A stretch of 64,000 bases of DNA from a bacterium (GTDB lineage: Bacteria > Fidelibacterota > Marinisomatia > Marinisomatales > UBA1611): NCBI GenBank assembly GCA_004321745.1, contig SGYO01000001.1:156525-220524 (forward strand). The letters are read 5' to 3'. How positions within the stretch are numbered: position 1 is the stretch's first letter; each line of letters begins with the position of its first letter. The translations under genes and the position numbers were made by a program. The notes under the pieces were generated by a model, which worked only from the letters and a program-made list of their open reading frames with translations, ran no database searches and was not told where the DNA came from. Positions 1 to 64,000 of the stretch are shown here, one piece after another.

Positions 1-856
1 AAGTTGTTATTGTAATAGGAGTGGACCCTTTGTAATTATCCCTAGGAATTACTGTCACTTTATTACTTTTGATATCAAAATCTGCTCCTCCATCACCTGC
101 AACAGAATAAATTAAATTATCACCATCTATATCCAATCCATCTATCATAAGATCTACTTGATTTCTTTTTATTTCAGTTTTAGAAAAAATAGATTCTATT
201 ACAGGGGCATCATTTATTGGTTTTACATTTAGTATGAAACTAGATTCATCTGTGGTTTTACCATCAGATACAGCTAAGCTAATATTAATTGGACCATAAA
301 AATTTGGAAGTGGTATAACAGTCAAATTATTATCAATAATCTTAATTCTTGCATTATCATCTGTTGTAGCGCCATAAGTAAGATCATCTACCTCAGCATC
401 TTTTGCCATCAACTTTATATTAAAAACTTCATCTTCATTTATTTCTTGATCGGGAATACTTGATAATATAGGTTTATCATTTACAGATTGAACATTGAGT
501 ATAAAACTCATATCAAGGCTAAGGTTAACTAATATTGTGCCGTTGAAATTTTCAAAAGGAGAAATTATAAGGTAATCACCGTCCTGCTTAATGTCAGCAT
601 TCCCGTCAACTGATGCAGAATATTTAATTCCAGATCCAGTAACTGGGACTTTTAATATATAACTATTATCTTCTTTTACATTTTGATAGGCTCCATGTAA
701 AAGTTCAATAACCCACTTTGGTTCAGGACCGTCGCCAAAAATCCAATCCTGAGTTAAATTATTATTAATGTAATCTTTATTTTGGGAAAATACACTACTA
801 TATAAGCAGAATGAAAAAATAAAAAAATATATTCTAAATATTATCAATACTTTCAT
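1..856 (-). CDS. Secreted tandem cadherin/Ig-like repeat protein (C-terminus outside window)
   Basis: Not in ORF track because it is open at the window edge. Minus-strand reading from ATG at 856 gives MKVLIIFRIYFFIFSFCLYSSVFSQNKDYINNN... (signal peptide), then repeats with 'NVQSVNDKPILSSIPDQEINEDEVF' and 'NVKPINDAPVIESIF' signatures of VCBS/cadherin-like repeats. Confidence 0.75.
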   Translation of the reverse strand, partial: MKVLIIFRIYFFIFSFCLYSSVFSQNKDYINNNLTQDWIFGDGPEPKWVIELLHGAYQNVKEDNSYILKVPVTGSGIKYSASVDGNADIKQDGDYLIISPFENFNGTILVNLSLDMSFILNVQSVNDKPILSSIPDQEINEDEVFNIKLMAKDAEVDDLTYGATTDDNARIKIIDNNLTVIPLPNFYGPINISLAVSDGKTTDESSFILNVKPINDAPVIESIFSKTEIKRNQVDLMIDGLDIDGDNLIYSVAGDGGADFDIKSNKVTVIPRDNYKGSTPITITT

Positions 857-1559
857 TTTTAGATCTTATAAAAGCATCAAAATATATTTCAACTCGCCTA
901 TTTTGCGCTCTTGCCTCTTCGAGCTCAGATCTGTTTTTAATATTGTTGATGGTTATCTTAGGACGAAATTCACCATATCCTAAGGCAGAAAAATAGTGCT
1001 GATCCATTTCAGCGAGCTCACTGAGTCTTTGAACTAAATTTAGAGCACGAGCTGAGCTAAGCTCCCAATTATTTCTAAACTTTGAATTCATAGGAATTGG
1101 CTTATCATCAGTATGTCCTTCAGCTCTTATTTCAATGTTTAAAGTATCATTTGCATCACTAATTCTATTTAATAATGGTAACCATCGTTTCTGTTTGTAT
1201 ATGTTCATCAAGGTTGATGTCCGTATTAAACCCCCAATTTGGACTAAAATCGGGTCTGCTTCTGGATTTAGATCAGCTGATAAAGATTTAAAAAGTTTAG
1301 ATCCAGTAAGGGTAATTTTTATTCCTTTGGTAACCCTTTCAATTTCAACTAAATTATTTTGTTGAAGCGGTTTTAGTTCTCTCTCAGTCTCATCTAAAAT
1401 AATATTAACTAATCTATCAACATGAGCCTCTGCATCATTTAAAATTACTAGTAGTAATACAAAAAAAGTCAGAAGCAGTGTTGTTAGATCTGCAAAGGTC
1501 AAAGCCCAGGCTGTAGTTTTAGCTCTGGCTTCTTCCTGCGATATGGATTTTCTTTGCAA
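834..1559 (-). CDS. MotB-like / OmpA-domain stator protein
   Basis: N-terminal TM with Asp (WALTFADLTTLLLTFFVLLL) and C-terminal OmpA/MotB peptidoglycan-binding domain (EGHTDDKPI...NWELSSARAL...GYGEFRP...QNRRVEI). Confidence 0.88.
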   Translation of the reverse strand: MQRKSISQEEARAKTTAWALTFADLTTLLLTFFVLLLVILNDAEAHVDRLVNIILDETERELKPLQQNNLVEIERVTKGIKITLTGSKLFKSLSADLNPEADPILVQIGGLIRTSTLMNIYKQKRWLPLLNRISDANDTLNIEIRAEGHTDDKPIPMNSKFRNNWELSSARALNLVQRLSELAEMDQHYFSALGYGEFRPKITINNIKNRSELEEARAQNRRVEIYFDAFIRSKNESIDNI

Positions 1560-1561
1560 TT

Positions 1562-2440
1562 TTATTTCTCTTTTTCTTCAAGAGCATTTCTTTCTGACAT
1601 TGCTACAAAGGTCATTAATTTTTCTTTAATCAAAATAGGATGTTCCCTGCCATGAATACTGATAATACCCTCCAGGACAATACTCTTGAGCATAATTTCA
1701 TTTTCTGACCTTCTTTTTAATTTTCCTGCAATTGGTAAGAATACCATGTTAGCTAAAAACACACCATAAAAAGTCGTTATTAATGCCGTACCCATCCCAA
1801 CTAAAAGCGCCGAAAACTGATCAGCAACATTAAAATCAATTGAAGAAGTCTCGCCAGACATTTGGAATTTATTCATCATGATTATTAACCCTAGGACAGT
1901 TCCTAACATACCAAAGGCAGGTGCATATGCTGCCATATACAATATAATTTCTTGAGCTCCAATGTGACGAGTAGAAATATTATTTAAATCCATCGTAAGA
2001 AAAGTCCTCAGTCTGTTACTATCACGCTCATTTATAGCCAACTCTATACCATTTCTTAAAAAAACACTTTCAATGTCTTTTAATCCTGCCTCTAAAGACA
2101 GCAAACCATCCTTTCGCGACTTTTCAGCAAGGACTACAATTTTATCTATCGTGCCAGTAAAATCAAATTTTTCAGATAAAACTACATTTTTAAACACATT
2201 ACCCATATTAATTACAGCTTTGATTGGGTAATTAACTAGCGTCGCCGATATTACTCCACCTAGTACAATAAAAACTGATTGCGGTTGATAGAACCATATC
2301 AATTGCTCAAAGCGCCAAGAATCTCCTGTAGATAAAACAATATCACCTCGATCAACCTCAGGCCATATCATTGAAACGAAAATACAAAGGAGCCCAGCTA
2401 CAAGACCAATTATTGTCCCAAAATCAAATTGTGATTTCAT
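1562..2440 (-). CDS. MotA/TolQ/ExbB-family proton channel, MotA-like
   Basis: MotA architecture: N-terminal TMs, 'SRKDGLLSLEAGLKDIESVFLRNGIELAI', 'AAYAPAFGMLGTVLGLIIMM', 'ALLVGMGTALITTFYGVFLANMVFLPIAGKLKRR'. Confidence 0.9.
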   Translation of the reverse strand: MKSQFDFGTIIGLVAGLLCIFVSMIWPEVDRGDIVLSTGDSWRFEQLIWFYQPQSVFIVLGGVISATLVNYPIKAVINMGNVFKNVVLSEKFDFTGTIDKIVVLAEKSRKDGLLSLEAGLKDIESVFLRNGIELAINERDSNRLRTFLTMDLNNISTRHIGAQEIILYMAAYAPAFGMLGTVLGLIIMMNKFQMSGETSSIDFNVADQFSALLVGMGTALITTFYGVFLANMVFLPIAGKLKRRSENEIMLKSIVLEGIISIHGREHPILIKEKLMTFVAMSERNALEEKEK

Positions 2441-12542: not shown

Positions 12543-15500
12543 TTAATAGTATTTAAGCACTTGTGTTTCTTGTACAAGAGCTATCTTTAAGATTTTTTCA
12601 TTACCACCGGATTTTATTCGTGCTACGTATAAGCCACTTGCAACAGGATAACCATACTGGTTTTTTAGATCCCATTGTGCAAATTGGCTAGCATCATTTT
12701 TTTCTATACTTCTTACGTAAACACCACCTAAAGAATAAATATCAATAGTGGCTTCTACAGGAAGATGATTAAATGAAACATACTTTTCAGCACGACTGCT
12801 TTCTAACTCATGTGTACCGTAATAAGGATTTGGATAAACGCTTACGCTAGATATGTCATTAGAAGCAACTGTCTGGTTTGCAATAGTTGAGAATGAAAAC
12901 TGATCTACACCAACCTGAATTGGGTTAGCATATTTAAAGACCACTACATCTCCTTTATTAAATTGTGTATCCCACCACACAACATTCCATGTTAAGAAAC
13001 CATTTGGATCACCTGTTCTACCGGAAACATAGTCACCGCTTTCTTGGTATGCTGTATGAATGAAGTGTGTATACATACGATTATATGGATTAAAAGAATA
13101 CATAAATCCTGGATCATCTGGATTACCATCTGCACCAGTATTTTGAATTCTATCATACACATCTATATCGATCTGTTGTGGTCCATCAGGATGTTCCATA
13201 TCCCACACTTCAAAAGGAACCCAAATTCTAAAATTACTTCCATCTCCAGGATTTTCTGGATCAGGATGTGTAGCAATATCATAACCTCTGGCACCTGTCA
13301 TCCATGCATATGAACCACCTATACAATTACCATCAGCATCTTGTTCACACATAATGTATTGAATAGTTGCACCAGCATCATCTGTGAATTCAACATAGTT
13401 GTTTTCATCATATTCACCGGTGAAACGTACTTCAATATCTCTTTGAAGTGTATCTACACTTAAAACAGCATTTGGCTCTGGTATCGCATCATAAGCTAAT
13501 GCAGAAGATGCCCAACCATTCGCTAGGTAAGAATCAATATCATAAATTGACTCACCATAAAGCTCTGCAGCTGCTGCATCAGCAACCACTTCTCTATCAA
13601 AAGCATCATTTGGAGCAGCATAGCCACCTGTTACCATTACCTGAAAACCTTCAGTAGTTGGAGCAGCTGAACTGTTATATGTTAAGAAAGAAGAGTTCTC
13701 AACACTGTTACCAGCCATAACATCACTACCACTAACAAAAGTTTGCTTATCTAACAGTGCAGTGTTTGTAGTTACATTTGTTAAGCTCCAATGCTTTTCA
13801 ATCTGTACATAATAAGTTAAGTCACTTATTGTAGTAGAGCCCTCAGCATTTGTAGCAACTGTGTATACTGAACCATCACAAGCTTCACCAATTTCATAAG
13901 CTTCACATGTTTCACAATTACTTGGACACCACAACTGAGACCAAGCATCATCATACATAACATAATCTAAAGTTAAATCGCTTGGGAAACTACTAGGCTT
14001 ATTAATATTGATAGTCAATACTTGACCACCACAAAAACCCGCTCCATCTTGTGTTGTGCTACCTAGCATTACTTCATTACCTGACTCAGAGATCATAGTA
14101 ACGATTCCACTTACTTCAGAGGCAGAATTTATTACTGTTCCCTCAGGAAAAGTCACATGAACCCCAGCTACACAATTGTAATCTGGAGAAACTACATTAA
14201 CATTCAACACTACATCAATAGTTGATGGGTCTGGATTTGTTAAATATACACCAGAAACTGATGAAGGAGAAACATCTCCAACCTTAGCAGCATTTGGATC
14301 ATCAGTGGTCCAAGCACCATCAGCTCCAATCCAATAAGCTTGTTCAGAAAACGAAACATTATAAGTATCACCTGTTAATTTAGATGGGTTTACAACCTTA
14401 ACATCTACATAAGCATTTGCAGTACCATTATGAGTAACATCTACCATTGAACTCATTTCTTGATTAACAGTAACGCCAGGATTTGGGCTATGTGGAGTAA
14501 CAGCCACCCTAGTCTCACCAGATTCAAGAGTTTTAAAAGGACTTCCTTCATTTTCAGATAAGAAACTGTATGCTGTAACAGCAAAATGATAAGTCACTCC
14601 ATTTGACATTGGACGACCACGAACTTCGTCATAATCTGTTTCAAAGTATCTTTGAACCCCTGCATCCGTACCTGTCTGCTTTGCAGCATCTACAACTAAT
14701 CCAGTAATAGGATCAATTGAAGGATCTAAAATATTTTGAACCAAGTTTACCTTATCAAAAGTTGCAACTTTGACACCTTCACTTAAAGGAGAGCTAGCAG
14801 AGGGAAGCTGATAAACAACATACCCTTCAAACTCGAAGCCTGCACTTACTGTCTCTTCAGTAGACGAAACAGAATTTGCATCTGAACCCCAATCAAGACC
14901 TACCTTACCATCCATCTCTAAACCAACTACAGAAGGAGATGAAGGAGCACTAGGTAGTTCAAAATCTTGATCATAGGCATATTGACCATAAAGATCATGA
15001 AATTTTGCAACAGAAACTGATGACACATTATCAAGTCCCATACCACCAGCAATACCTAGAACAACATCAGCCTCTTCACCAAGGTTTAATCTAAATGGAC
15101 CACTTGCCATGACCATTCTTCTATCTCCAGGAGGAAGCTGAACACCATCAATCCAACCAGAACCGCTAGTCGGATCACCAGATAATGCAAACTTTGTTTC
15201 TAACCCAGTTGAAGGATCAGTAAAAGGAATCTGAGTTGGATACTCTGGACGCGGAAGGAAACCTTCCATTAAATTAAAAAACTGTAATGAACCAGCATAC
15301 GATGATAGATCTGGGTCACTAATCGCTGAACCAGCACCAAAATATGTAAATGAGGTCATACCTAAGTATTCTTCAGTGTCGCCGTCTCCATCAATATCCA
15401 TATTATCTGGAGGACCCTGCAAGAAATCATAACCACCTGCAGGTACCGGCAAGTTGAAAATACCATTAAATACACCATCTAATCTGTTACCATTGTACAC

Positions 15501-16478
15501 GTAACCAAAAGAAAGATCAACATCACAACCAACATAGTCGTCAGTGAAAGTTCCTAAGTCTGGATCTGACCACTGAGTAAAATACAAAGAATCAAGCATG
15601 GCACCTTCAGGAGTTCCTGGAAGACCCATATATCTCATCTTAGCTGCTTTAAAAATGTTATTACCTAGTGGATCACTAGCACCAAAAGCATATCCCCAAA
15701 TAGTAATTTGAAGCTCAATACCTATCGGGTCTGCACCATACAAACTAGGAGCAGTTGATTCATAACCAATACTATCACCTGCAGCATTAACAATTTTTGG
15801 GACATCATTTGCAATTGTCCACATTGTCTGATCTGCACCAGGATACCCAGGAACATCTACAGCAGGATCAAAAGAACCATCACCATTAACATCATGGTAT
15901 GGAGCTCCCCAAGCAGCAGGCCAATTCATATAATCATATTCATACTGCCCTTTAACTGTAGCAATTTGCTCCGCAGTGACATCACCAACTGAAGTAGCGT
16001 AAAAGTTTGCAGCATCAACAGAAAGATCTGCAGTAGCCCAATCTGTTCTTACACGCCAGACATGATTGTTAGCAGGATCATCAGAACCTAAAACATTACC
16101 ATTTGTATCGGTAATAATTCTACCAGCTTTCATACCATGGTAATAAGTAGAACCACCAACGCGAACTTCGTCACCTTGACCGTCACCTTTTACCTTAGCA
16201 CCCCAAAGCATACCATCAGAATAGATAAATCCTCCGGTAAAAATTGGGTAGTCAGCCATTGTACCGTTTGGACTACCAGCGGTTGTATATGCACCGTCCT
16301 TGCCTATCCAGTAAGCAATATTGTTAATGTTTAATACAGAAATACCAGGACTCTGGTTTTCCATAACTCTATTTGTAGCTTTTGTGTCAGCCTTGCTATT
16401 GGCAAGTTCTTTTGCAAACAAGCCTGAAACAAGAAACATACAACTAGCAACTATTAGTTTTAGATTTTTCATTTTCAT
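12543..16478 (-). CDS. Large secreted protein with T9SS-type C-terminal sorting domain
   Basis: 1311 aa with signal peptide; C-terminal 'VSVYPNPYYGTHELES...DIYSLGGVYVRSIEKN...WDLKNQYGYPVASGLYVARIKSGGNEKILKIALVQE'. Confidence 0.8.
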   Translation of the reverse strand: MKMKNLKLIVASCMFLVSGLFAKELANSKADTKATNRVMENQSPGISVLNINNIAYWIGKDGAYTTAGSPNGTMADYPIFTGGFIYSDGMLWGAKVKGDGQGDEVRVGGSTYYHGMKAGRIITDTNGNVLGSDDPANNHVWRVRTDWATADLSVDAANFYATSVGDVTAEQIATVKGQYEYDYMNWPAAWGAPYHDVNGDGSFDPAVDVPGYPGADQTMWTIANDVPKIVNAAGDSIGYESTAPSLYGADPIGIELQITIWGYAFGASDPLGNNIFKAAKMRYMGLPGTPEGAMLDSLYFTQWSDPDLGTFTDDYVGCDVDLSFGYVYNGNRLDGVFNGIFNLPVPAGGYDFLQGPPDNMDIDGDGDTEEYLGMTSFTYFGAGSAISDPDLSSYAGSLQFFNLMEGFLPRPEYPTQIPFTDPSTGLETKFALSGDPTSGSGWIDGVQLPPGDRRMVMASGPFRLNLGEEADVVLGIAGGMGLDNVSSVSVAKFHDLYGQYAYDQDFELPSAPSSPSVVGLEMDGKVGLDWGSDANSVSSTEETVSAGFEFEGYVVYQLPSASSPLSEGVKVATFDKVNLVQNILDPSIDPITGLVVDAAKQTGTDAGVQRYFETDYDEVRGRPMSNGVTYHFAVTAYSFLSENEGSPFKTLESGETRVAVTPHSPNPGVTVNQEMSSMVDVTHNGTANAYVDVKVVNPSKLTGDTYNVSFSEQAYWIGADGAWTTDDPNAAKVGDVSPSSVSGVYLTNPDPSTIDVVLNVNVVSPDYNCVAGVHVTFPEGTVINSASEVSGIVTMISESGNEVMLGSTTQDGAGFCGGQVLTININKPSSFPSDLTLDYVMYDDAWSQLWCPSNCETCEAYEIGEACDGSVYTVATNAEGSTTISDLTYYVQIEKHWSLTNVTTNTALLDKQTFVSGSDVMAGNSVENSSFLTYNSSAAPTTEGFQVMVTGGYAAPNDAFDREVVADAAAAELYGESIYDIDSYLANGWASSALAYDAIPEPNAVLSVDTLQRDIEVRFTGEYDENNYVEFTDDAGATIQYIMCEQDADGNCIGGSYAWMTGARGYDIATHPDPENPGDGSNFRIWVPFEVWDMEHPDGPQQIDIDVYDRIQNTGADGNPDDPGFMYSFNPYNRMYTHFIHTAYQESGDYVSGRTGDPNGFLTWNVVWWDTQFNKGDVVVFKYANPIQVGVDQFSFSTIANQTVASNDISSVSVYPNPYYGTHELESSRAEKYVSFNHLPVEATIDIYSLGGVYVRSIEKNDASQFAQWDLKNQYGYPVASGLYVARIKSGGNEKILKIALVQETQVLKYY

Positions 16479-28349: not shown

Positions 28350-29294
28350 CTATTCGATCATCTCTCCGCCACCCATCATATCCGCTAAATTAAAAGCGCC
28401 TTCTTTTTCCATAGCTTTAGCCGCAGTAACAATAATTTTTCTAGCGTCATCAACTTCTCTTTTGGGCTTTGGACCTTCAACGGGCTCAAACATAGCTTGT
28501 TTTTTCTGAGGTAAGTTACCAATAACTCTGTCAACTGTCTCTTGTTCAATTCCTTTCAATGCCATCGCTAATGCATCAAGTTCAACACTATTACAAAGAT
28601 CTCTTAGGATTCCATCAGGGAAGTTCGCTAAAATATCCTCAAAGGTTAGAACTAACATTTTAACATCTTTATATAATTCAGGATTTTCATTTTGAAGAGT
28701 TTGCATATATCTTTCAGCTTCATCTGCACCCATCTCTCCTATTAGATCAGCAATCTCTTTGGCTCCTCCTCTAGAAAACTCAACTGGCTTGGGTAAGTAA
28801 GATGCTTTTTCTTTTAGTTTACCCGCAACTTCTACTATCGCTTCTAAAGGAACATCCTGTAAACTACCAAGTTCAATTAATACTTTCCCTTTTTCTTCAG
28901 GCTTCATGCGTTCTAAAATAGACATTCTTTTGGAAGAATCTAGCTGAGCTAATGCTATAGCAATTACCGGGACATCTTCATTTGCAAGTAATGCAACAAG
29001 CTGTTCATCAGTCATTTCAGTTAAAAATTCAAATGGCTTGATTGGTCCTTCGTCCTCGTCATCTCCGCCTTCTTCAGAAAATTGTTCACTTAAAAAACCA
29101 AAATAGAATTCTTCCATTATTCGTCTTTTCAAAGTAAATGAGACGCTATCCATTTCTCGAATGGTAGCTCTTATTTTTCTTACCTCAGTACGAGATAAAC
29201 CCTTAATAAGAGACATAGCAAGGCTTTCACCTAATACTGAAAAAAGAATTGCGACTTTATGTAGCCCTGATAGGCGATTATAATCTGTTATCAT
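28350..29294 (-). CDS. fliG-like: FliG-like motor protein
   Basis: FliG_N (LSGLHKVAILFSVLGESLAMSLIKGLSRTEVRKIRATI), FliG_M (LTEMTDEQLVALLANEDVPVIAIALAQLDSSKRMSILERMKPEEKGKVLIEL), FliG_C (TFEDILANFPDGILRDLCNSVELDALAMALKGIEQE). Confidence 0.92.
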   Translation of the reverse strand: MITDYNRLSGLHKVAILFSVLGESLAMSLIKGLSRTEVRKIRATIREMDSVSFTLKRRIMEEFYFGFLSEQFSEEGGDDEDEGPIKPFEFLTEMTDEQLVALLANEDVPVIAIALAQLDSSKRMSILERMKPEEKGKVLIELGSLQDVPLEAIVEVAGKLKEKASYLPKPVEFSRGGAKEIADLIGEMGADEAERYMQTLQNENPELYKDVKMLVLTFEDILANFPDGILRDLCNSVELDALAMALKGIEQETVDRVIGNLPQKKQAMFEPVEGPKPKREVDDARKIIVTAAKAMEKEGAFNLADMMGGGEMIE

Positions 29295-29312: not shown

Positions 29313-31166
29313 TTACTTTTCTTTCTGTTCAGAACCATCACTATCTGCATCAGCAGCGGGAGTCTCTTGCTCAGATTCAGCTGGCGGTGTAGGTTCTGGT
29401 TGCTCTAACCATTCTTTTACTATCGTGGTAGTTCTATCCGGCTGGCCTACACTCATAGATACAACGGATTTGCGTATATCATTTATTTCACTCCTGACCA
29501 CATCTGGATCATTATCACTCGATGGTGGCAACGAACTTTCAGGCTGAGATTCTTCTTTATCAGCGCCTGTTACTTCTTGATCAGCGGACTGCTCAGGCTG
29601 AGGTGCAGGTGGCGTAACTACAGGCTCCTCAGACTGAGACTTTGATGCTGGTTCTTCAGTTTTTGAATTTTGTTTAGACTCTTTATCTTTACTTGGCACC
29701 TCTCTTCTTTTCCTTCTTGGTCTACGTGGTGGTGGAGGCATCATCCAAGGAGGAACAGGTGCTTGCCTGCTATTATTTCTTAATAAAACAAACATTAAAG
29801 CTGCTATCAAAATAAATACTAAAGCACCAAGAATAATTAAGATGATAAAAGTATTTCCACTTTCTTTTTCCATATCCTGATGCAACTTGTCTAACTCTTC
29901 CTGAACGCTATCAAGTTCGCGAATCTTGTCAGCAATTTCTTGTTCTCTTTCCTCTTTCTGTTTTTCTCTCTCAGCCATTTCAGCTTGAATTTTACGCTTT
30001 GCTTTAACTTCTTCATCCTTAGATTTTGAAACAACTGCAGTTTGAAGTGATTTTGCTAACTCATCTAACTCAGTACTAAGGCTAACATACCTTAGAGAAT
30101 CTATACGTTCTTGCTTGCTAACACTTTTTAAACTATCACGTTTTTCGGCGCTCTTAAGCATTGATTTCAAAGCAACAATTTCATCGTTTAATTTCTTAAG
30201 CTTTAATGAGTCTCTTAAAAGCATGTCTTTTTTCTCTTGCGCATAAGCGCGATCTTTGGCTTGCTGCTCTAGTTGTGAAATTTGTCCCTCAAAAAACTTT
30301 CTATCATCTTCTCTTCTAGCAGACTCTTCTTCTCTGTATCTAGTTAATTCATCCTTCCAGGTAGCATCTTGAGTATTTTCTTCAATTTCTCTTTTTTGCT
30401 CAAGAAGTTCAATTTTTTCTGCTATGTTTTTCAGCATGATCTGTTCAGCTGAGCGCTGATCTCTTCTTTCTCTAAAACTAGCTGTCATTATAGTTAGCTT
30501 ATCACCGCGGTTTCTATCAAATTTTGCTGCAGCCATAGTTAACTGTCTGATATTTTCGATAAGCTCTGGAGCAGCTCCCTCCTGCAAAATTAAACTAATA
30601 TACATCTTTTTTACTTCAGCTCTCGATGGCCTTGTCCTTGATAAAATCTTATCAACCCGAGGTTCGTTTGAACTACTACTCTCATCAGTAACTTCAATTG
30701 GTTTCTTTGTTTCAACTGACATTACTGGGGGCTTTGGTTCTTCGGCTTTTTTTGAAGCTTTATTTGAATTCGTAAAATCCATCTCAAACCCTGGGATTGG
30801 TAACCCGACAGAGTAACCAGATTGACTAGATTCTTCTTCTGATTCTATTGCTTGCTGAATACTTGATAAAGATTCCTCTACAATGGTCTTCTCCTTAGGC
30901 ATATCATTAGAAGACTGATTTGAATTTTTTTCTGACAAAACTGTGATTTGCTCTTCAACTTCATCGCTAATATCTAGATCAATATCAACATTAATAACAT
31001 ATTTATTACTGTCAATAATCTTAGAAAGAGCATCTTTGATTCTTTCTCTTATATTATTTTCTACCATAAGCTTTTGTGCTAGGTAGCCAGACCCTTGGCC
31101 TATTAAAAAAGCAGACAGTAAGAAAACCGCTAATCTTCTTTTAATATTTGAAACTATTTTTATCAT
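29313..31166 (-). CDS. fliF-like: FliF-like MS-ring protein, RBM3-only with coiled-coil insertion
   Basis: N-terminal TM; RBM3-like halves (VENNIRERIKDALSKIIDSNKYVINVDIDLDI and VKKMYISLILQEG...ENIRQLTMAAAKFDRNRGDKLTIMTASF); long charged coiled coil; second TM (NTFIILIILGALVFILIAALMFVLL); C-terminal FliG-binding-like helix (VRSEINDIRKSVVSMSVGQPDRTTTIVKEWLEQ). Confidence 0.82.
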   Translation of the reverse strand: MIKIVSNIKRRLAVFLLSAFLIGQGSGYLAQKLMVENNIRERIKDALSKIIDSNKYVINVDIDLDISDEVEEQITVLSEKNSNQSSNDMPKEKTIVEESLSSIQQAIESEEESSQSGYSVGLPIPGFEMDFTNSNKASKKAEEPKPPVMSVETKKPIEVTDESSSSNEPRVDKILSRTRPSRAEVKKMYISLILQEGAAPELIENIRQLTMAAAKFDRNRGDKLTIMTASFRERRDQRSAEQIMLKNIAEKIELLEQKREIEENTQDATWKDELTRYREEESARREDDRKFFEGQISQLEQQAKDRAYAQEKKDMLLRDSLKLKKLNDEIVALKSMLKSAEKRDSLKSVSKQERIDSLRYVSLSTELDELAKSLQTAVVSKSKDEEVKAKRKIQAEMAEREKQKEEREQEIADKIRELDSVQEELDKLHQDMEKESGNTFIILIILGALVFILIAALMFVLLRNNSRQAPVPPWMMPPPPRRPRRKRREVPSKDKESKQNSKTEEPASKSQSEEPVVTPPAPQPEQSADQEVTGADKEESQPESSLPPSSDNDPDVVRSEINDIRKSVVSMSVGQPDRTTTIVKEWLEQPEPTPPAESEQETPAADADSDGSEQKEK

Positions 31167-31187: not shown

Positions 31188-32069
31188 TTAATCTTCATAG
31201 CTTGTTGCTGACCGCCCCTTACCATGATGTGGCGGATTTAAAAAAGTAATTTGAATTCTTCTGTTTTTAGATTTCATTTTTTCGTTTTTATTTAAACCTA
31301 AAACAGTTGGCATTTCTTTCCCGTCTGGAGTTTTAACTGGATCTTTCCAAGTTAATGTTAAAGGATTCCACATTGGGTTTTGCTTTTTTACACTATCAAG
31401 CCCATGAGGAGCCCAAGGACCATACCCTGCAGCCAATAATCGTGGTGCAGGTATTCCCTTGTCGATCATGTAACGTACAACGCTAGCACCCCTTGCGGCA
31501 GAAAGTTCCCAGTTGGTAGCAAAGTTCTTTCTCCATTTTTTTGGCATTTTATCTGAATCAGAATGACCAGCGACCTCTACTTGAAAAGGACTCAATTGAA
31601 TTTTTGGTATAATTTCTTCATCTAAAAGTCCTTTTAACTCTTCTTTCATAGAGGCTTTACCAATTGGAAAAGCATAATCGCCTTTAATATTCACTATTAG
31701 ACCTTTTGAACTAGTTTGAATATCGATTGGAGGATCACCTTTTGGATTCTCTTTTTTCATCTCCTCAATAGTTTCTTCCATTTCTTTTTTCATTTCAGCT
31801 AAATTTTTAATTGGTTCAAACTCACCCTCTTCTTCAGCTTTTCCGCTGGCTTTGATTTTACTCCCTAATGACTTACCCTCAGAATTTGCCATTTCTTGAA
31901 GTTTTACAGGATCCATAGTAGATATAGCAGCAAGTAATACAAAAAATGCAAATAATAATGTCATCATGTCTGCAAAAGTTCCGAACCATCCAGGAAGCCC
32001 CTCTTCAACAGAGTTAGCTCCATCCTCAAAACCTTTTTTATATCCGTTTTTAAATTCTGCGCCAGCCAT
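31188..32069 (-). CDS. motB-like: MotB-like stator protein
   Basis: LPGWFGTFADMMTLLFAFFVLLAA (TM with Asp) and OmpA domain (VEVAGHSDSDKMP...NWELSAARGASVVRYMIDKGIPAPRLLAAGYGPWAP...KSKNRRIQITF). Confidence 0.93.
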   Translation of the reverse strand: MAGAEFKNGYKKGFEDGANSVEEGLPGWFGTFADMMTLLFAFFVLLAAISTMDPVKLQEMANSEGKSLGSKIKASGKAEEEGEFEPIKNLAEMKKEMEETIEEMKKENPKGDPPIDIQTSSKGLIVNIKGDYAFPIGKASMKEELKGLLDEEIIPKIQLSPFQVEVAGHSDSDKMPKKWRKNFATNWELSAARGASVVRYMIDKGIPAPRLLAAGYGPWAPHGLDSVKKQNPMWNPLTLTWKDPVKTPDGKEMPTVLGLNKNEKMKSKNRRIQITFLNPPHHGKGRSATSYED

Positions 32070-32078
32070 AAGAAAACT

Positions 32079-32867
32079 CTAGCCTTCTGCTTTCCACTCT
32101 CCAGGAGGAATGAATGAATTTAATTTTTCACGAACAATTAAAGGATGCTTTTTCTGATGAATTAACCTTGCAGCTTCTACTAATAGCGCTGCTGACATCG
32201 ATGTTTGAGTAGTTTTATTGCCCATCTTATCTGCCATTGGTAGAAAAAATAAATTTGCAAAAACAGCACCATAAAGAGTGGTAATTAGAGCTGCCGCCAT
32301 ACCACCACCTAAATTGTCTGCTCCTCCTTCACCACCAAAACCAGCTAACATAAGAACAAGACCAATAAGAGTACCTACCATACCCCATGCTGGAGCTAAA
32401 TCACCCATTGACTTCAACATTGATTTCTGAACATTTTCTCTTTTTTCTCTATATTCGATTCTTGTCTCCATAATTTCAGTTATCTCATCAAGAGAGTAGC
32501 CGTCTACAACCATTTGAACGCCATCTTTGAAAAAATAATTTTTTATACCATCAACTGATTTTTCAAGATCAGCTGCACCTTTCCTTCCAACTTCAGCTAC
32601 TTCAACAGCTTCATCTACAAGTGGCCCCATTTTATCATCAGCTGGCTTTAGAACAGCACCAATAGCTTTTCCAAGAGCAACAACGTGAGGCATTGGAAAA
32701 GCAACAAATATAGACGCAATCATTCCTCCAAATACAATTCCAAAACTTGGTGCAGATAGAAAGTTTCCAAATCCCCCTGCTGAACCTTCAACAAAAAGAG
32801 CATAAGCAATACTACCTATCATACAAACAAAACCAAATATAACTCCTATAATTAAAGCAATATCCAT
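32079..32867 (-). CDS. motA-like: MotA-like stator protein
   Basis: GRKGAADLEKSVDGIKNYFFKDGVQMVVDGY, GDLAPAWGMVGTLIGLVLMLAGF, MAAALITTLYGAVFANLFFLPMADKM. Confidence 0.93.
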   Translation of the reverse strand: MDIALIIGVIFGFVCMIGSIAYALFVEGSAGGFGNFLSAPSFGIVFGGMIASIFVAFPMPHVVALGKAIGAVLKPADDKMGPLVDEAVEVAEVGRKGAADLEKSVDGIKNYFFKDGVQMVVDGYSLDEITEIMETRIEYREKRENVQKSMLKSMGDLAPAWGMVGTLIGLVLMLAGFGGEGGADNLGGGMAAALITTLYGAVFANLFFLPMADKMGNKTTQTSMSAALLVEAARLIHQKKHPLIVREKLNSFIPPGEWKAEG

Positions 32868-32870
32868 GTT

Positions 32871-34250
32871 TTACTCCTCAAATAAATTAGCTTCTTTAAG
32901 ACGATTCTCATGAAGCGCCTTTAAAATATTTCTGACATCATCATACTCAGGATCTAACCTAAGTGCGAGATTCCAATTTATCGTGGCTCTTTGAACATCA
33001 CCTAACTTGTAATATATAGAACCACGCCTAGCGTAAGCTAAAGCTAAATCAGGTTTCAGTTCCAATGATAAATCAACTTCCTTTAGTGCTTCACGAAAAT
33101 CACCTGCGTAAAAATATCTAAGACTTCTTGATAAGTGTCTCATAGCTTCATTCATATTTTTTTCATGAACGTTTTTACTAAGTTTTAACTGTTTAAGTGA
33201 ATCCACAAGAAATTGTGATTCCTGCTCCAGAGCAGATAATTGTACCATCAAATTTCGCATTTCATTATTCATCATGGACATAGAGTCTCTTAACGACAAT
33301 ACGGTAAAATCAGCCATCGCAATCGTAGAATCCATGTAAGCAGGGATAGAACCGCTTTCAGAACTAGATGCACTACCTCTAAATAAAGGCTGGTTAGATG
33401 GTCCACTTGAAGTGGACCTCAACCCACCACCTGCTCTTGGAACTGCCATATCAAACCCCACCGTGAATGCTGGATGCCCAGTCCAATAACGAGTTTTCCA
33501 GCTAGGTAAGCGCTCTATGTGGGTGAACCCAAGGTTCAGGCGGTAATCCGAGGTAAGGGGGATGCGGAGTCCCACATTGACACCTGTTCCATCGAATTCA
33601 CCCACAATATCCATTCCGCCAGTTCTACCGAAGTAGGGCGTTTTCAATAAGAATCCAACAAAGACACCCGCATTTGCCGTTTGTGCTGAATCACTTATTA
33701 CTTTGACACTATCCATCGGGCCTAGGCCTCCAGTACCGAAACCCATGAAAGTGCTCATCTTATAATCACCTAAATCTTTCTCACTAGCAAGTACTAGAAA
33801 AAAAGATAAAAGGTCAGTATTTAAACTTAAAACTTGTTCGTCGTCTTGGTTGTTTTGGAAGACAATATCTTGCAAACCTGCTGAAAGAGAAATATCATTA
33901 TAAACAAAAATTTTTTGTTGAAAATGGAACCCAAATTCTACTTGTGGAGAATACTGAGATTCAGAAATCAAATTCAAGGCTGTCGTATCACCCCCTTGAA
34001 CAGCAGAGAATCCTGCAGAAAAACCTTTCGCAAATTCCATATCGAAGTAAACACCTTTAGCTGTGTTGATGGGATCAAAATTGTGGAGTTCTACCCCAAA
34101 ACCAGTCCTAAAAATATAAGGAGCTTTTTCAACGCTAGATGTTGGAATTCTCATCATTAAACCAGGGCGAGTGTAAGCAACTCGAGCAGATGCAAAAATC
34201 ATACTTGACAAAAATACAAGTGTAAATAATATATTTTTTTTGCTATTCAT
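32871..34250 (-). CDS. Outer-membrane beta-barrel-like protein with coiled coil and C-terminal TPRs
   Basis: Signal peptide, Gly/aromatic beta-rich N-terminal domain, coiled coil, then TPRs (AMRHLSRSLRYFYAGDFREALKEVDLSLELKPDLALAYARRGSIYYKLGDVQRATINWNLALRLDPEYDD). Confidence 0.75.
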   Translation of the reverse strand: MNSKKNILFTLVFLSSMIFASARVAYTRPGLMMRIPTSSVEKAPYIFRTGFGVELHNFDPINTAKGVYFDMEFAKGFSAGFSAVQGGDTTALNLISESQYSPQVEFGFHFQQKIFVYNDISLSAGLQDIVFQNNQDDEQVLSLNTDLLSFFLVLASEKDLGDYKMSTFMGFGTGGLGPMDSVKVISDSAQTANAGVFVGFLLKTPYFGRTGGMDIVGEFDGTGVNVGLRIPLTSDYRLNLGFTHIERLPSWKTRYWTGHPAFTVGFDMAVPRAGGGLRSTSSGPSNQPLFRGSASSSESGSIPAYMDSTIAMADFTVLSLRDSMSMMNNEMRNLMVQLSALEQESQFLVDSLKQLKLSKNVHEKNMNEAMRHLSRSLRYFYAGDFREALKEVDLSLELKPDLALAYARRGSIYYKLGDVQRATINWNLALRLDPEYDDVRNILKALHENRLKEANLFEE

Positions 34251-34257
34251 TTAATTG

Positions 34258-35172
34258 CTATATGTTGTGTATTTCCTGTTCAGCAAATGCTTTATACTCA
34301 CCATCAGGGTAAAAGTTAACTAATGTTTGAAAAACTTTTTGAGCTTTATCCCTCATTCCAATGTCTCTATAAATGATTCCTTTTTTAAAGAGAACCAATT
34401 CAGAATAAGCAGAGTCATTAAACGATGCTAATTTTTCTAAGCAAAGCAAAGCCTGCTTGTACCTCCCAATTTTTTCATAGGAATCAGCAAGCAAGAATAG
34501 TCCTTTAGTAGCATTTCTAGGTTCACCTTTTTCAAATGGAAGCACTCCTAAATATTCAATACACTTATCAAACTGCTCATTATTATAGTGTATGACTCCT
34601 TTTACGTAAATATCTTCATCAAAATCTTTAAGTATTATTTTATGCTCAATGTTTTCTGCTTGAGGGTCAACTTCTTCAATAATACCGTGGTCAGCGGATG
34701 ATAATTCTAATGGAAGAGATACTTCAATTTCTGGTTTAACTAATTCAACTTCAATTGAACTAACATTTAACATTTCTGAATTAAGCCTCTGTTTTAGACT
34801 AATAATTTGATTTTTTAGATTGGAATTTTCAACTTCAAGCTGCTCTATCTTAGAGTAATAATCATTTTCGATGTTACTAACTTGACTAGTGATTTTATTT
34901 ATGGATGAAATCATATCAGATGCTTTGGCTGTGGCAATAGAATTATATTCTTTTTTATCTATAATACTATTCGATTTAACTTCATGAGTTTCATCTATAT
35001 TTGGTTGTTCTAATGTACCAAAATTATCTGCAGGCTTAATGACCACCCCCATATCAGGTAAAAATGTATCGCCATCCACATGCTGACCAAAGACATTCGG
35101 AACAAGAAATGTTAAAATAATATAAAGTAATTTGATTATCATAAGATGTTTTTTTATTGATACTCTTCCCAA
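34258..35172 (-). CDS. Periplasmic coiled-coil + TPR protein (YbgF-like organisation)
   Basis: Signal sequence; coiled coil (DYYSKIEQLEVENSNLKNQIISLKQRLN); TPRs (VKGVIHYNNEQFDKCIEYL...FLLADSYEKIGRYKQALLCLEKL...GMRDKAQKVFQTLVNFYPDGEYKAFAEQEI). Confidence 0.75.
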   Translation of the reverse strand: MGRVSIKKHLMIIKLLYIILTFLVPNVFGQHVDGDTFLPDMGVVIKPADNFGTLEQPNIDETHEVKSNSIIDKKEYNSIATAKASDMISSINKITSQVSNIENDYYSKIEQLEVENSNLKNQIISLKQRLNSEMLNVSSIEVELVKPEIEVSLPLELSSADHGIIEEVDPQAENIEHKIILKDFDEDIYVKGVIHYNNEQFDKCIEYLGVLPFEKGEPRNATKGLFLLADSYEKIGRYKQALLCLEKLASFNDSAYSELVLFKKGIIYRDIGMRDKAQKVFQTLVNFYPDGEYKAFAEQEIHNI

Positions 35173-36308
35173 TCAATTACATAAGAATAACCAATGAAAG
35201 ACCCAAAGTCTTGAGGAACATACAATTCGAACTTCCCTAGAGCTCCTGGCAACAGGCTAGCATCAGAGACAATCCCACTATCAAAAGTATTGTAAGAACC
35301 TTGTATAAATGTTGTCAATGTGCGAGTTTCTCCACTCCAATTTTTTCTAAACACAAAATCCATTTTTACAAAATCTGCTCTTCTACCCCCAATGTTTTTA
35401 ATTTCACCATTAAAAACAACATTTCCTTGCGTATCCTTTTTTTCAGATATGTTACCCATTAAAACGCAATTAGCTGAAAACTTTTCACTAGCATCTCTAT
35501 TAGAAACACTTGAAGATGTGTACTTAGGAACAGTCAACTTTGGCATAGGAGGTGGAGCATAACTTTCTCTGATTTGCTCTGGAACATATTCTTGCTGATC
35601 TTCGGTTATAACATTATCAACAATCCGAACTACCTCGTCTCTCTTAATTATTAAATAACCAACTAGAGTCTCAACTTTTAAAGATTTATCATCTTGATAT
35701 ACAATTTTCCCAAAAACTGTGCTGCCATTTTTTAAAATTATTTCTTTCGAATAAATAGTTAATGGATTGATCCACATTTTACTTAGAGCTTTAAGATCAT
35801 CCATTTCTCTACTTAAATGCTTGAACTCTGCTGTTAGCTTTTTTATTTCAAAATTAAGTTCATTTAAAATAAAATCATTGGATGCTCCTCCACTAGCTTC
35901 TGCTGTTTGAGGAACAGGTACTGACGAAACTTCTTGATTAACAGAATTTGCAGCTGCAGCAGAAATGACCGTCTTATCAACTACAGCAGATGAAGTACCA
36001 ACGTTAATTTCTAAATTATCATCATCACTATCTACTTTAATAGATTGTTCATGAATTACTTTTTTGTCTGCTATGACCTTTAAAGTATATTCGCCTTCTA
36101 GAACATTATTTAACTTAAACTCACCATCTCTATTGGTTTTGTCATCTTTTTTAGTACCAGCAAGTTCGACAGTTACCTTACCATCTATACCTTTAACAGT
36201 ACCTTTTAAGTCATATTTTTCTGCAGCAAATGACACTGAGTGCCCAAAAAGCAACAGAACATACAGCGAGCATACAACTCGCCCTATAAAGCTCAATTGT
36301 GATCTCAT
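35154..36308 (-). CDS. Secreted protein: carboxypeptidase-regulatory-like + FxLYD-like domains
   Basis: KYDLKGTVKGIDGKVTVELAGTKKDDKTNRDGEFKLNNVLEGEYTLKV; C-terminal 'VVFNGEIKNIGGRRADFVKMDFVFRKNWSGETRTLTTFIQG...LLPGALGKFELYV'. Confidence 0.65.
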   Translation of the reverse strand: MRSQLSFIGRVVCSLYVLLLFGHSVSFAAEKYDLKGTVKGIDGKVTVELAGTKKDDKTNRDGEFKLNNVLEGEYTLKVIADKKVIHEQSIKVDSDDDNLEINVGTSSAVVDKTVISAAAANSVNQEVSSVPVPQTAEASGGASNDFILNELNFEIKKLTAEFKHLSREMDDLKALSKMWINPLTIYSKEIILKNGSTVFGKIVYQDDKSLKVETLVGYLIIKRDEVVRIVDNVITEDQQEYVPEQIRESYAPPPMPKLTVPKYTSSSVSNRDASEKFSANCVLMGNISEKKDTQGNVVFNGEIKNIGGRRADFVKMDFVFRKNWSGETRTLTTFIQGSYNTFDSGIVSDASLLPGALGKFELYVPQDFGSFIGYSYVIDWEEYQ

Positions 36309-36444: not shown

Positions 36445-37020
36445 TTATTTCCAAAAGGAATCTAATTTACTTTTCCGATTTTTAGCTATTTTATAGTTTT
36501 TTTCAACTTCTAATCGTAAACCTTCATCTAAATCTAGCGCTAAAGATTTTTCATATGATTCAAGAATTAAATCAAATTCTGTATCGCCTAACTTTGTATA
36601 TGATTGAGCAATCCAGTAAAATGGTTCACCATTTCTTGGAAATAAAGATGATGCTCTGGAAAATTTCTCAATCGCATCCCATATTCCATTTTTATTGCCT
36701 TTTTTAATTAATATTCTCCCCTCAGCGATTAAAAGCCCAAAGTTAGACTCTTTATTATCGCCATCTATAGAAGTTGATTTATTAAAGTGCTGAACAGCTA
36801 ATTTCAAATTACCAGTATTTAGGTACCTTTTTGCAACACTATTATTTGCAGTAACCAACGCATCTCTGATACGTTGATTGTTGCCACTAACTGAAAGAAG
36901 AGAGTCTTGAACTGCTACTAATTTGGTGGGATTTTCAATGCTGAGTTTTTTGTAGTTTTTTCCAGCACAATTAAAAAATTGAACAAATATTATTATTAAT
37001 AAACTGTTTTTTATTGCCAT
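36445..37020 (-). CDS. TPR-containing putative lipoprotein
   Basis: N-terminal 'LLIIIFVQFFNCAGK' lipobox-like; TPR-like repeats (KRYLNTGNLKLAVQHFNKSTSIDGDNKES). Confidence 0.65.
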   Translation of the reverse strand: MAIKNSLLIIIFVQFFNCAGKNYKKLSIENPTKLVAVQDSLLSVSGNNQRIRDALVTANNSVAKRYLNTGNLKLAVQHFNKSTSIDGDNKESNFGLLIAEGRILIKKGNKNGIWDAIEKFSRASSLFPRNGEPFYWIAQSYTKLGDTEFDLILESYEKSLALDLDEGLRLEVEKNYKIAKNRKSKLDSFWK

Positions 37021-61231: not shown

Positions 61232-64000
61232 TTATTTTAATAAAATCATTTTTTGAGTTTTAGAATTAACCCCAGCGTCTAAACGATAAAAATAAACACC
61301 AGAAGCATGCCTACCTGCATTCCATTGAATCGTATGGAATCCAGCAACTCTATTTTCATTTACTAAGGTTTCAACTAACCTACCTGTTACACTGTAAATA
61401 CCTAAGCTTACTTTCTGGTTTTCAGGAAGTGAAAACTTAATATTTGTTACAGGGTTAAATGGATTTGGATAGTTTTGATAAAGAGCAAATACCTCTGGGG
61501 CAATTGGAGCTTCATTATCATTACTTAAGACAGTCGCCTGATCACCAATCCATGTGAAGGACCACTCCTGTGGATTATTCCACTGTTGATCAGTTGAAAG
61601 GGTAGAATAACCAACTCGTCCCTCCAAAGTGCCATTATCGTTATCATGAAAATAAATATCAATAGGTATCCTCATTCCGTTCATAGGATGAAATCTTGGA
61701 TCCCCAGATAGAATTGCTAGGGTATCTAAAGATATTTTCCCTTCTACTACGTAGTCAGGATCAAATCCTTCAAAGTAGTAATGATCCTGATCAGAATTAC
61801 CAATGCTTACGTTACCTGGATTATCTAGCTGTAATGTATTTTCATTAGAATATAAGATATAATCAGGCTCATCTCCTCTATTAATTGAATTATGCTTTGG
61901 ACCTCTCCAATCATATAGTCCAATAAATAATTGCATTGCATCCTGTTCATACCAATTACCTTCTCCAAAGTAATAATCATCGTCGATAACATCTGCAGCA
62001 TAATATAAGTAATCATCGTCGATCGCCATATAAACAGTTGCATTAAGATCAGACTCATCATCCACACTAGAATAAACACCGCCTGTAGTTGGGTTGATTA
62101 TGAATGGCATAATTCCACTATCAGCCCACTCTGATACATCGCCATCAGCTACAAAGTTAGATGGTACATTCAATGATATTGTTGGTATACCTTTTGCAGT
62201 ATTTGTAACCGGAGCGCTTGATGCACCAAAATCACCAACATTACCAGCAGCATCTACAGCCACGACAGCATAATAATAAGTTACGTTTGCATCCTCAAGA
62301 GGATAAAAAAGATAATGAGTTGCTGTTTGGGCACCTTCCAATACGTTAGAGGCAACAAGCTCAACGCCTGGAACGCCTAATTCAGTTATTGGACTCTCAC
62401 TAGCAAACACGTCATACATCTCTTCCTCTTCTCCATCAACGTCAGTCCAAGTAACCAAGTTAAAGTTAGCACCTGGTATTCCACTTACATTTTCAGGAGC
62501 AACTGGCGCAACCACATCAATGTCTGGTGTACCTGTCCACATATTATCAAAGTGGAATGTTCTGCCTGCAGCACCATTACCTTCAGATAAGATCTGAAAA
62601 GCTGTAATTGCGCTTGTGTCAAAATCTGAGGTGTTATCTACATATGCAAAATCTTTCAATGCATACTTATAATGGTTCCAGCCACCAGCAGCAACTGGCG
62701 TAAAGTTTCCACCTACTTTGCCATTATCACCTGATTCAAACTGCAACCTTAACTGCGGAGCATCTGCTTCAGAGTGCATCCAAAAAGAAATTGAGTCACT
62801 TAGCCATTCGTTGCCACTATGAAGATCTACTGGAGGGGCGATATTAAGACCACCGCCAGTCCAGGCATCCTGTTGAACATAAGTTAGTGCATTGGTACCT
62901 GGAATATATCCACCACCTTCGGTGACAAACATTTGCGCACCACCCCATGCAAATGGATTACCCCATCCTGGAGGCGTGCCCATACCGTTAAAGATTACAA
63001 GATCTACACCTTTATATCCGACCAACTTAAAATCGTCCAGGATCACCGTACCACTTACATGATCTCCTTCTCCGCCGCCGCCGACTGAGAACTCAAGGTG
63101 AAAACCACCAACAGCATGTGCATCAAATTCATAATTATCAGCGTCGCCAGCCCAACCAGTTAGATTTAGGCCACCGCCATTCCAGTCGTCATTTCTAACT
63201 AATGGCATAGTAACTGTATTCCAACCAGGTTCACTATCTAGTATATAGTGAAAAGAGTAATAATACTCCCCAAGACCTGAATAATTTTCATCAACTCCTG
63301 CATAGTCGCTAATATTTAATCTTAAATGAATACGATTTACTTCTGAAGCTGGAATAGAATTATAGTACTTAAAAGATATACTATCATATCCAGACCAATC
63401 CCACAAGTCACCCTCCTCAGGTGTGACTCTAAAAACAGCATCAGGATTAAATGTATCATCTTCATTAACTAAAAGCTGTCCAGGGCTAGCTTGTTTTTCA
63501 AAGGTAAATGTCCAATACCCCGTGGCTGTAGGAACAGATAATTTTAAGGTTCCATCATCAGTAGGGTGAACAGTGTATGTAATTGATTCAGGAGCACCAG
63601 AAGAACCTGTTATTCCATCACCGTCATCAGATAACTCACTTCCATTGTACGCTTTCGCTATTCCTAAAAAAGCACCAACGCCTGACAATGTTAATGTGTT
63701 TGCTGTTGCGTCATGAGCATATGTAGCTGCATTAGAACCATCGTGTGGGGCGACTGGGGCTCCACAGCCTTCAGCATCAACGCTATCTTGCCATGTTTCA
63801 TTCCAAGTATCAGCACCTAAAACGTTTTGGAAAGATCCATCTGCATTAAATATATATTCATCATCAAATAAACATCCTCTAGTGGTTACATCGGCAACAG
63901 AATTTTGCCACCAAGATCCATCATCCTGATTAGGACCAACTTTAAAAGCACCTTCTATTGGAGCAAGCCTCCAAGTTCCAGCAAGATCAAATGATGGTAG
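61232..64000 (-). CDS. Secreted multidomain carbohydrate-binding protein with T9SS CTD (N-terminus outside window)
   Basis: The frame continues upstream of the listed TTG start at 63688 to the window edge (PSFDLAGTWRLAPIEGAFKVGPNQDDGSWWQNSVADVTTRGCLFDDEYIFNADGSFQNV...). FN3-like and CBM9-like (VADGDVSEWAD) domains; YPNPFNPVTNIKFSL CTD. Confidence 0.88.
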   Translation of the reverse strand, partial: LPSFDLAGTWRLAPIEGAFKVGPNQDDGSWWQNSVADVTTRGCLFDDEYIFNADGSFQNVLGADTWNETWQDSVDAEGCGAPVAPHDGSNAATYAHDATANTLTLSGVGAFLGIAKAYNGSELSDDGDGITGSSGAPESITYTVHPTDDGTLKLSVPTATGYWTFTFEKQASPGQLLVNEDDTFNPDAVFRVTPEEGDLWDWSGYDSISFKYYNSIPASEVNRIHLRLNISDYAGVDENYSGLGEYYYSFHYILDSEPGWNTVTMPLVRNDDWNGGGLNLTGWAGDADNYEFDAHAVGGFHLEFSVGGGGEGDHVSGTVILDDFKLVGYKGVDLVIFNGMGTPPGWGNPFAWGGAQMFVTEGGGYIPGTNALTYVQQDAWTGGGLNIAPPVDLHSGNEWLSDSISFWMHSEADAPQLRLQFESGDNGKVGGNFTPVAAGGWNHYKYALKDFAYVDNTSDFDTSAITAFQILSEGNGAAGRTFHFDNMWTGTPDIDVVAPVAPENVSGIPGANFNLVTWTDVDGEEEEMYDVFASESPITELGVPGVELVASNVLEGAQTATHYLFYPLEDANVTYYYAVVAVDAAGNVGDFGASSAPVTNTAKGIPTISLNVPSNFVADGDVSEWADSGIMPFIINPTTGGVYSSVDDESDLNATVYMAIDDDYLYYAADVIDDDYYFGEGNWYEQDAMQLFIGLYDWRGPKHNSINRGDEPDYILYSNENTLQLDNPGNVSIGNSDQDHYYFEGFDPDYVVEGKISLDTLAILSGDPRFHPMNGMRIPIDIYFHDNDNGTLEGRVGYSTLSTDQQWNNPQEWSFTWIGDQATVLSNDNEAPIAPEVFALYQNYPNPFNPVTNIKFSLPENQKVSLGIYSVTGRLVETLVNENRVAGFHTIQWNAGRHASGVYFYRLDAGVNSKTQKMILLK

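Follow-up and report, generated by a model that had tools for sequence, protein, structure and literature searches.

An operon joining a FliF relative that lacks RBM1 and RBM2 to FliG and MotAB suggests a stand-alone rotary motor in Marinimicrobia

The window analysed here, a stretch of 64,000 nucleotides from a bacterium whose nearest named relative is Candidatus Marinimicrobia (now Fidelibacterota, NCBI taxonomy), carries an operon of eight genes separated by short gaps. They follow each other in the order TPRa lipoprotein, CarboxypepD-reg protein, TPRb, putative barrel-TPR protein, MotA*, MotB*, FliF* and FliG*, with FliF* as the seventh gene (Table 1).

Table 1. Genes of the operon and features of FliF*, with their positions in the window.
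Feature	Position	Strand	Basis
Putative TPR lipoprotein (TPRa), Cys near residue 18	36445..37020	minus	Pfam search; found at 17 loci
Secreted protein with a CarboxypepD_reg-like domain, a coil and, at its C-terminus, a conserved domain not named in Pfam	35154..36308	minus	retained in operon
Secreted coiled-coil and TPR protein (TPRb), weakly BamD/YbgF(CpoB)-like	34258..35172	minus	Pfam/NCBIfam matches
Secreted putative outer-membrane beta-barrel with a short coil and TPR at its C-terminus	32871..34250	minus	TPR, amphipathic strands
MotA* (262 aa): flagellar-type stator subunit, Arg95, Glu102	32079..32867	minus	Pfam, NCBIfam
MotB* (293 aa): MotB_plug and OmpA-like peptidoglycan-binding domain, channel Asp34	31188..32069	minus	Pfam
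FliF* (617 aa, from ATG), RBM3-only FliF relative	29313..31166	minus	ORF; PF08345; hhalign to canonical FliF
FliF* predicted signal peptide, residues 1-23, cleavage before Gln24	31098..31166	minus	conserved +1 Gln
FliF* RBM3, residues 36-231, RGD motif at 220-222	30474..31061	minus	Pfam, alignment, PDB profile search, hhalign
FliF* low-complexity insert in RBM3 (residues 77-178), at the place of the FliF beta-collar; conserved P125-G126	30633..30938	minus	alignment A1
FliF* coiled coil, residues 235-437	29856..30464	minus	AF2 helix
FliF* single TM helix, residues 440-458	29793..29849	minus	hydropathy 3.3 over 19 residues
FliF* cytoplasmic tail, residues 553-589, FliG-binding motif SVGQPxxATxIVKEWLE	29400..29510	minus	invariant P576, W586; hhalign
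FliG* (314 aa): FliG_N, FliG_M, FliG_C; torque charges retained, EHPQ gone	28350..29294	minus	Pfam, conservation counts, PDB

The initial annotation had described FliF* as a FliF-like protein with an RBM3 and without RBM1/RBM2, and both parts of this description hold. The Pfam profile PF08345 (YscJ_FliF_C) matches residues 47-231 with 38.4 bits (E 2.2e-9, cut-off 23.8), is covered end to end (1-147) with the low-complexity insert spanned, and is matched individually by 41/41 aligned FliF* sequences (alignment A1, consisting of the window FliF* and 40 relatives). When FliF* is aligned by hhalign against 24 canonical FliF of the phylum, its columns 27-235 pair only with canonical columns 228-403 (probability 93%, E 2.5e-7), and the top PDB match of the FliF* profile is likewise FliF (8z5s, E 7e-6), the alignment beginning at FliF residue 270. 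The profile PF01514, which represents RBM1 and RBM2, found no match in the window FliF*, in any of 41 relatives or, at E<=10, anywhere in the window's genome, which argues that the absence of these domains is real; RBM3 begins only ~12 residues after the point where the signal peptide is predicted to be cut. The split of RBM3, which had been read as an unusual feature, is not one, as the RBM3 of ordinary FliF is also interrupted, by the beta-collar (PMC10655999). AlphaFold predictions for the whole FliF* and for its residues 25-245, made from four close sequences only, were of low confidence (pLDDT 57 and 42), too low to call an RBM3. Some deep FliF* members do not have the RGD motif and carry a CxxC at that place, so the fold could have drifted there; this replacement is seen in class-level relatives of families f16-f19 (loci L099, L100, L102, L105 and L108).

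The hydrophobic segment at the N-terminus of FliF*, taken in the initial annotation for a first TM helix, is in all likelihood a cleavable signal peptide, judging from its layout of a basic start followed by a hydrophobic stretch, a small residue and Gln. This Gln occupies the predicted +1 position in 39/41 FliF* (aligned column; ~40/41 with a one-residue shift), the residue preceding it is nearly always A, G or S, and similar sites occur in other secreted proteins of the window (e.g. AFSQ, IFGQ, LFAQ). With this predicted signal peptide, mature FliF* would keep one TM helix (residues 440-458), which follows the coiled coil and is retained in all relatives. The long charged coiled coil following RBM3 was also recovered, with ~200 charged residues and a predicted helix of pLDDT >90 at residues ~250-330 (AF2). 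As it measures anything between 44 and 210 aa among relatives, being nearly gone in some (44-47 aa), the coiled coil is a variable spacer and not a defining part of FliF*; that it forms a periplasmic stalk is plausible. The cytoplasmic tail bears out the proposed FliG-binding-like terminal helix: P576 and W586 are invariant across the 41 FliF*, and when the last 40 residues are compared by hhalign with 29 windows along canonical FliF only the C-terminal ones match (probability 93%, E 3.5e-7, versus 8.8% for the best unrelated window).

FliG* scores above the Pfam cut-offs for all its domains (FliG_C 78.8, FliG_N 63 and FliG_M 43.5 bits), matches PDB FliG at E 1.7e-41, and its N-domain matches the FliG structures solved with the FliF tail (5tdy, 5wuj). 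It falls below the cut-off of the NCBIfam equivalog TIGR00207 (105.5 vs 226.7 bits) and is shorter by ~25 residues between the N and middle domains. At the torque helix Lys247 and Lys/Arg264 are each present in 42/42 sequences. The acidic Glu270, near the position of D288/D289, is present in 40/42; the equivalences to E. coli residues follow the alignment pattern and not a structure. The EHPQ motif of FliG contacts FliM. Its Glu is kept in 42/42 FliG* and its His and Gln are lost, the His being present in 24/25 canonical FliG, and this loss fits the absence of FliM. In the stator, the channel Asp of MotB* is kept in 43/43 sequences and the Arg, Glu and two key Pro of MotA* also in 43/43; Arg95/Glu102 correspond to R90/E98 of E. 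coli MotA, which touch FliG (PMC12505986). By score MotA* is much closer to flagellar stators than to TolQ, and the best NCBIfam matches of the stator include MotP, PomA and MotS-type proteins; the likeness of MotA* to MotP/PomA hints that sodium may be the coupling ion. The window has a second MotA/MotB pair at 834-2440 (minus strand), beside rhomboid and RecO genes, whose MotA forms a clade separate from both the operon MotA and the flagellar MotA.

Gene order was read at more than 40 loci, drawn from families throughout the phylum Marinimicrobia (Fidelibacterota). The order MotA*-MotB*-FliF*-FliG* is unchanged at all loci as far as the contigs reach, and the barrel-TPR gene upstream of MotA* is likewise kept where contigs reach. 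Its product contains TPR in 30/30 sequences and amphipathic strands above shuffled sequence in 29/30, and has a mean column identity of 51%, compared with 31% for FliF* (alignment A1); the barrel call comes from the amphipathicity test, and the protein would sit in the outer membrane. The CarboxypepD-reg and TPR genes are present at most loci, TPRb often duplicated and TPRa at only 17. Among further neighbours, no adhesin, MglA-like GTPase, other GTPase or chemotaxis gene is conserved, and only lineage-specific housekeeping genes were found. The YbgF/BamD-like TPR gene (34258-35172) occurs as tandem copies in many of the deeper lineages; in the window's own family, several genomes do not have it next to the operon. 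One genome (G115) has two copies of the FliF* operon (L036, L037).

The window's genome (1.75 Mb, 92% complete, 40 contigs) contains one FliG, and profile searches of it found neither FlhA (FHIPEP) nor FliM/FliN. At this completeness and contig number an assembly gap could account for the absence of any one gene; FlhA is also missing from 129 genomes with FliF*, and by its gene content the window's bacterium would be without a flagellum. Across the phylum FliF* is found in 162/245 genomes and 69/84 genera and FlhA above its cut-off in 42/245 genomes, with both present in 33. Weak FliF* matches were rechecked and adjoin MotB in 12/12 genomes, and FliG too where the contig continues. The smallest genomes, those of family f9 (0.4-1 Mb), have no FliF*.

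The best explanation, to which we give a probability of about 0.7, is that the operon codes for a rotary motor that stands alone, is driven by ions and spans the cell envelope, and not for a flagellum. This reading is based on four motor parts sharing one operon, torque and channel residues being kept, and envelope genes being co-conserved in order. What the sequences show directly is the homology of the parts, their domains, conserved residues and order, and that export and switch genes are missing in the window's genome; from this we infer ring formation, rotation, the contacts between the parts and the outer-membrane location. In the proposed mechanism FliF* would be secreted, its signal peptide cut and the protein anchored by its one TM helix, so placed that its RBM3 domains could form a periplasmic ring; the RBM3 of Salmonella FliF alone makes native rings (PMC8786727). 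The coiled coil would set the height of the RBM3 ring in a lineage-specific manner. FliG* would assemble on the cytoplasmic tails of FliF* into a ring without FliM/FliN, and MotA*/MotB*, fixed to peptidoglycan, would push on FliG* and rotate it. Without FliM there is probably no CheY switch of the motor, and rotation may be one-way. Torque would pass from the RBM3 ring through the periplasmic TPR and coiled-coil proteins to the outer-membrane protein. As to the load, the first guess is that the motor propels the cell over surfaces or moves a component of the outer membrane, and the second that it does envelope work. The earlier proposal of a rotor that exports no filament is well supported in its core, as FlhA, FliM/FliN and RBM1/2 are missing from the genome and FliG and MotAB are adjacent, and is to be amended where it assumed a first TM helix and an unusual split. 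It also left aside that FliF* shares its operon with four envelope proteins and that this arrangement is conserved across a phylum.

If the motor moves the barrel/TPR complex around the cell or along it, in the manner of the Agl-Glt machine of Myxococcus or the Gld machine of Bacteroidota, the operon would be a gliding or surface-adhesin motor, which is a special case of the stand-alone motor. A MotAB-type stator together with TPR proteins, a lipoprotein and a putative barrel does resemble the envelope-spanning gliding machines in composition (PMC9120999, PMC13104615). However, a FliF/FliG rotor has been described for neither the Agl-Glt nor the Gld machine, and adhesin, MglA-like GTPase and chemosensory genes are not conserved neighbours. 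Many FliF* carriers, moreover, belong to lineages which we take to be planktonic, and we regard gliding as a tentative and somewhat doubtful specification. Another candidate is a Tol-Pal-like maintenance motor, in which ion flow would pull or turn parts in the periplasm and so position the outer membrane, peptidoglycan or septum. In its favour, the operon is retained in these presumably planktonic lineages, one of its TPR proteins is weakly YbgF/CpoB- and BamD-like and MotB* has an OmpA-like peptidoglycan-binding domain. Yet Tol-Pal needs no FliF/FliG ring, MotA* carries flagellar-type torque residues and scores as a flagellar stator far better than as TolQ, and the loss in the smallest genomes suggests a non-essential function, all of which makes this alternative unlikely.

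It is also conceivable that the operon energises the type IX secretion system in place of GldLM, as the SprA translocon is present in 223/245 genomes and GldM (TIGR03517) in 2, and as the window's genome has a full-length SprA and the window itself T9SS sorting domains; GldM (TIGR03517) was not matched in this genome. The TIGR03517 model may, however, have missed a divergent GldM, the operon is not beside SprA, and the streamlined genomes of family f9 (0.4-1 Mb, several >90% complete) have SprA and no FliF*. This persistence of SprA without FliF* argues against a necessary link, and we judge such a role to be quite improbable. Flagellated members of the phylum (FlhA over the cut-off in 42/245) could suggest that the operon is the remnant of a decaying flagellum. 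Against this, FliG* and MotA* both fall into clades of their own, set apart with support 1.0 from the flagellar copies that this phylum has, dN/dS is 0.02-0.08 when the window is compared with the relative locus L001 (dS being near saturation), both systems co-occur in 33 genomes, and the operon is phylum-wide with extra genes of its own. On account of the separate clades and the low dN/dS, flagellar decay was rejected, and we consider it very improbable indeed. As a separate observation, the SprA gene lies at L075 6261-12593 and the T9SS sorting domains at window positions 12543-16478 and 61232-63688; with GldM in only 2/245 genomes, the phylum has a type IX system without a recognised motor.

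Seen as a stand-alone motor, the system shares with the flagellar motor core a homologous RBM3, the FliG-binding tail, the FliG N, M and C domains and the stator torque and channel residues. It differs in having no RBM1/RBM2, one TM helix with a predicted signal peptide instead of two TM helices, no EHPQ motif and, in the window's genome, neither FliM/FliN nor an export gate; and whereas a flagellum has rod, hook and filament genes, the FliF* operon has envelope proteins of its own. Of the traits that define a FliF, FliF* thus has the RBM3 and the FliG-binding helix and lacks RBM1/2 and the second TM helix. FlgV of Helicobacter/Campylobacter, a small membrane protein of its own, is comparable by description in that it adds a further ring to the flagellar motor close to the MS/C-ring junction (PMC10655999), but it has two TM helices and is an accessory of a complete flagellum, while FliF* is apparently the sole MS-type ring protein of its machine. 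The Agl-Glt system of Myxococcus xanthus likewise has a MotAB-like motor and an envelope-spanning complex that reaches the outer membrane (PMC9120999); its AglR, however, is classed among the generic TolQ-like CCD3 transporters (PMC12505986), no FliF/FliG rotor has been described for it, and its motors travel along the cell. GldLM of type IX secretion is an ion-driven motor linked to outer-membrane parts in the FCB group, but is described as non-homologous to MotAB (PMC13104615), has no FliF/FliG ring and, as to GldM, is nearly absent from the FliF* phylum. With the flagellar-type stators (FIT class) MotA* shares the R/E torque residues and its best matches, MotP/PomA; this class is tied to flagella in a MotAB survey (PMC12505986), in contrast to MotA*, which lies in a non-flagellar operon.

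The machine would appear to work like a flagellar motor core and yet fall outside what defines a FliF (RBM1/2, two TM helices) and a flagellum (gate, switch). In the literature covered on non-flagellar FliF/FliG and on Marinimicrobia motility, with bioRxiv and most subscription papers outside its scope, the system is not described, and it may well represent a new machine class. The broader proposition, that a reduced flagellar core (RBM3-FliF, FliG and MotAB) drives an outer-membrane complex phylum-wide without type III export and so constitutes an undescribed class, we consider somewhat probable. Rotor proteins without filaments have been posed as an open question (PMC12199754), which here gains a concrete and testable object, namely a delimited group of genes that is under selection and is found in the majority of genera of an important marine phylum. 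The ring-building part of FliF (RBM3) is parted in nature from its export part (RBM1/2), a separation that bears on how modules could have been put together into the flagellum, or have come out of its falling apart. If the reading is true, this is a natural example of a partial flagellar motor working alone, in which the same motor parts seem to have been put to another job than the flagellum.

Two occurrences of FliF* lie under other labels. A MAG labelled SAR86 (L004) contains a short FliF*-FliG contig with a protein 75% identical to the window FliF*; among 299 genomes from the phylum of this MAG, only coiled-coil or canonical-FliF matches were found, the MAG itself excepted, and the contig is probably a misbinned Marinimicrobia contig. 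Finally, a 5.5-kb IMG/VR contig has FliF*-FliG in operon order (L076 1179-2642) and, although filed as viral, is probably host DNA.
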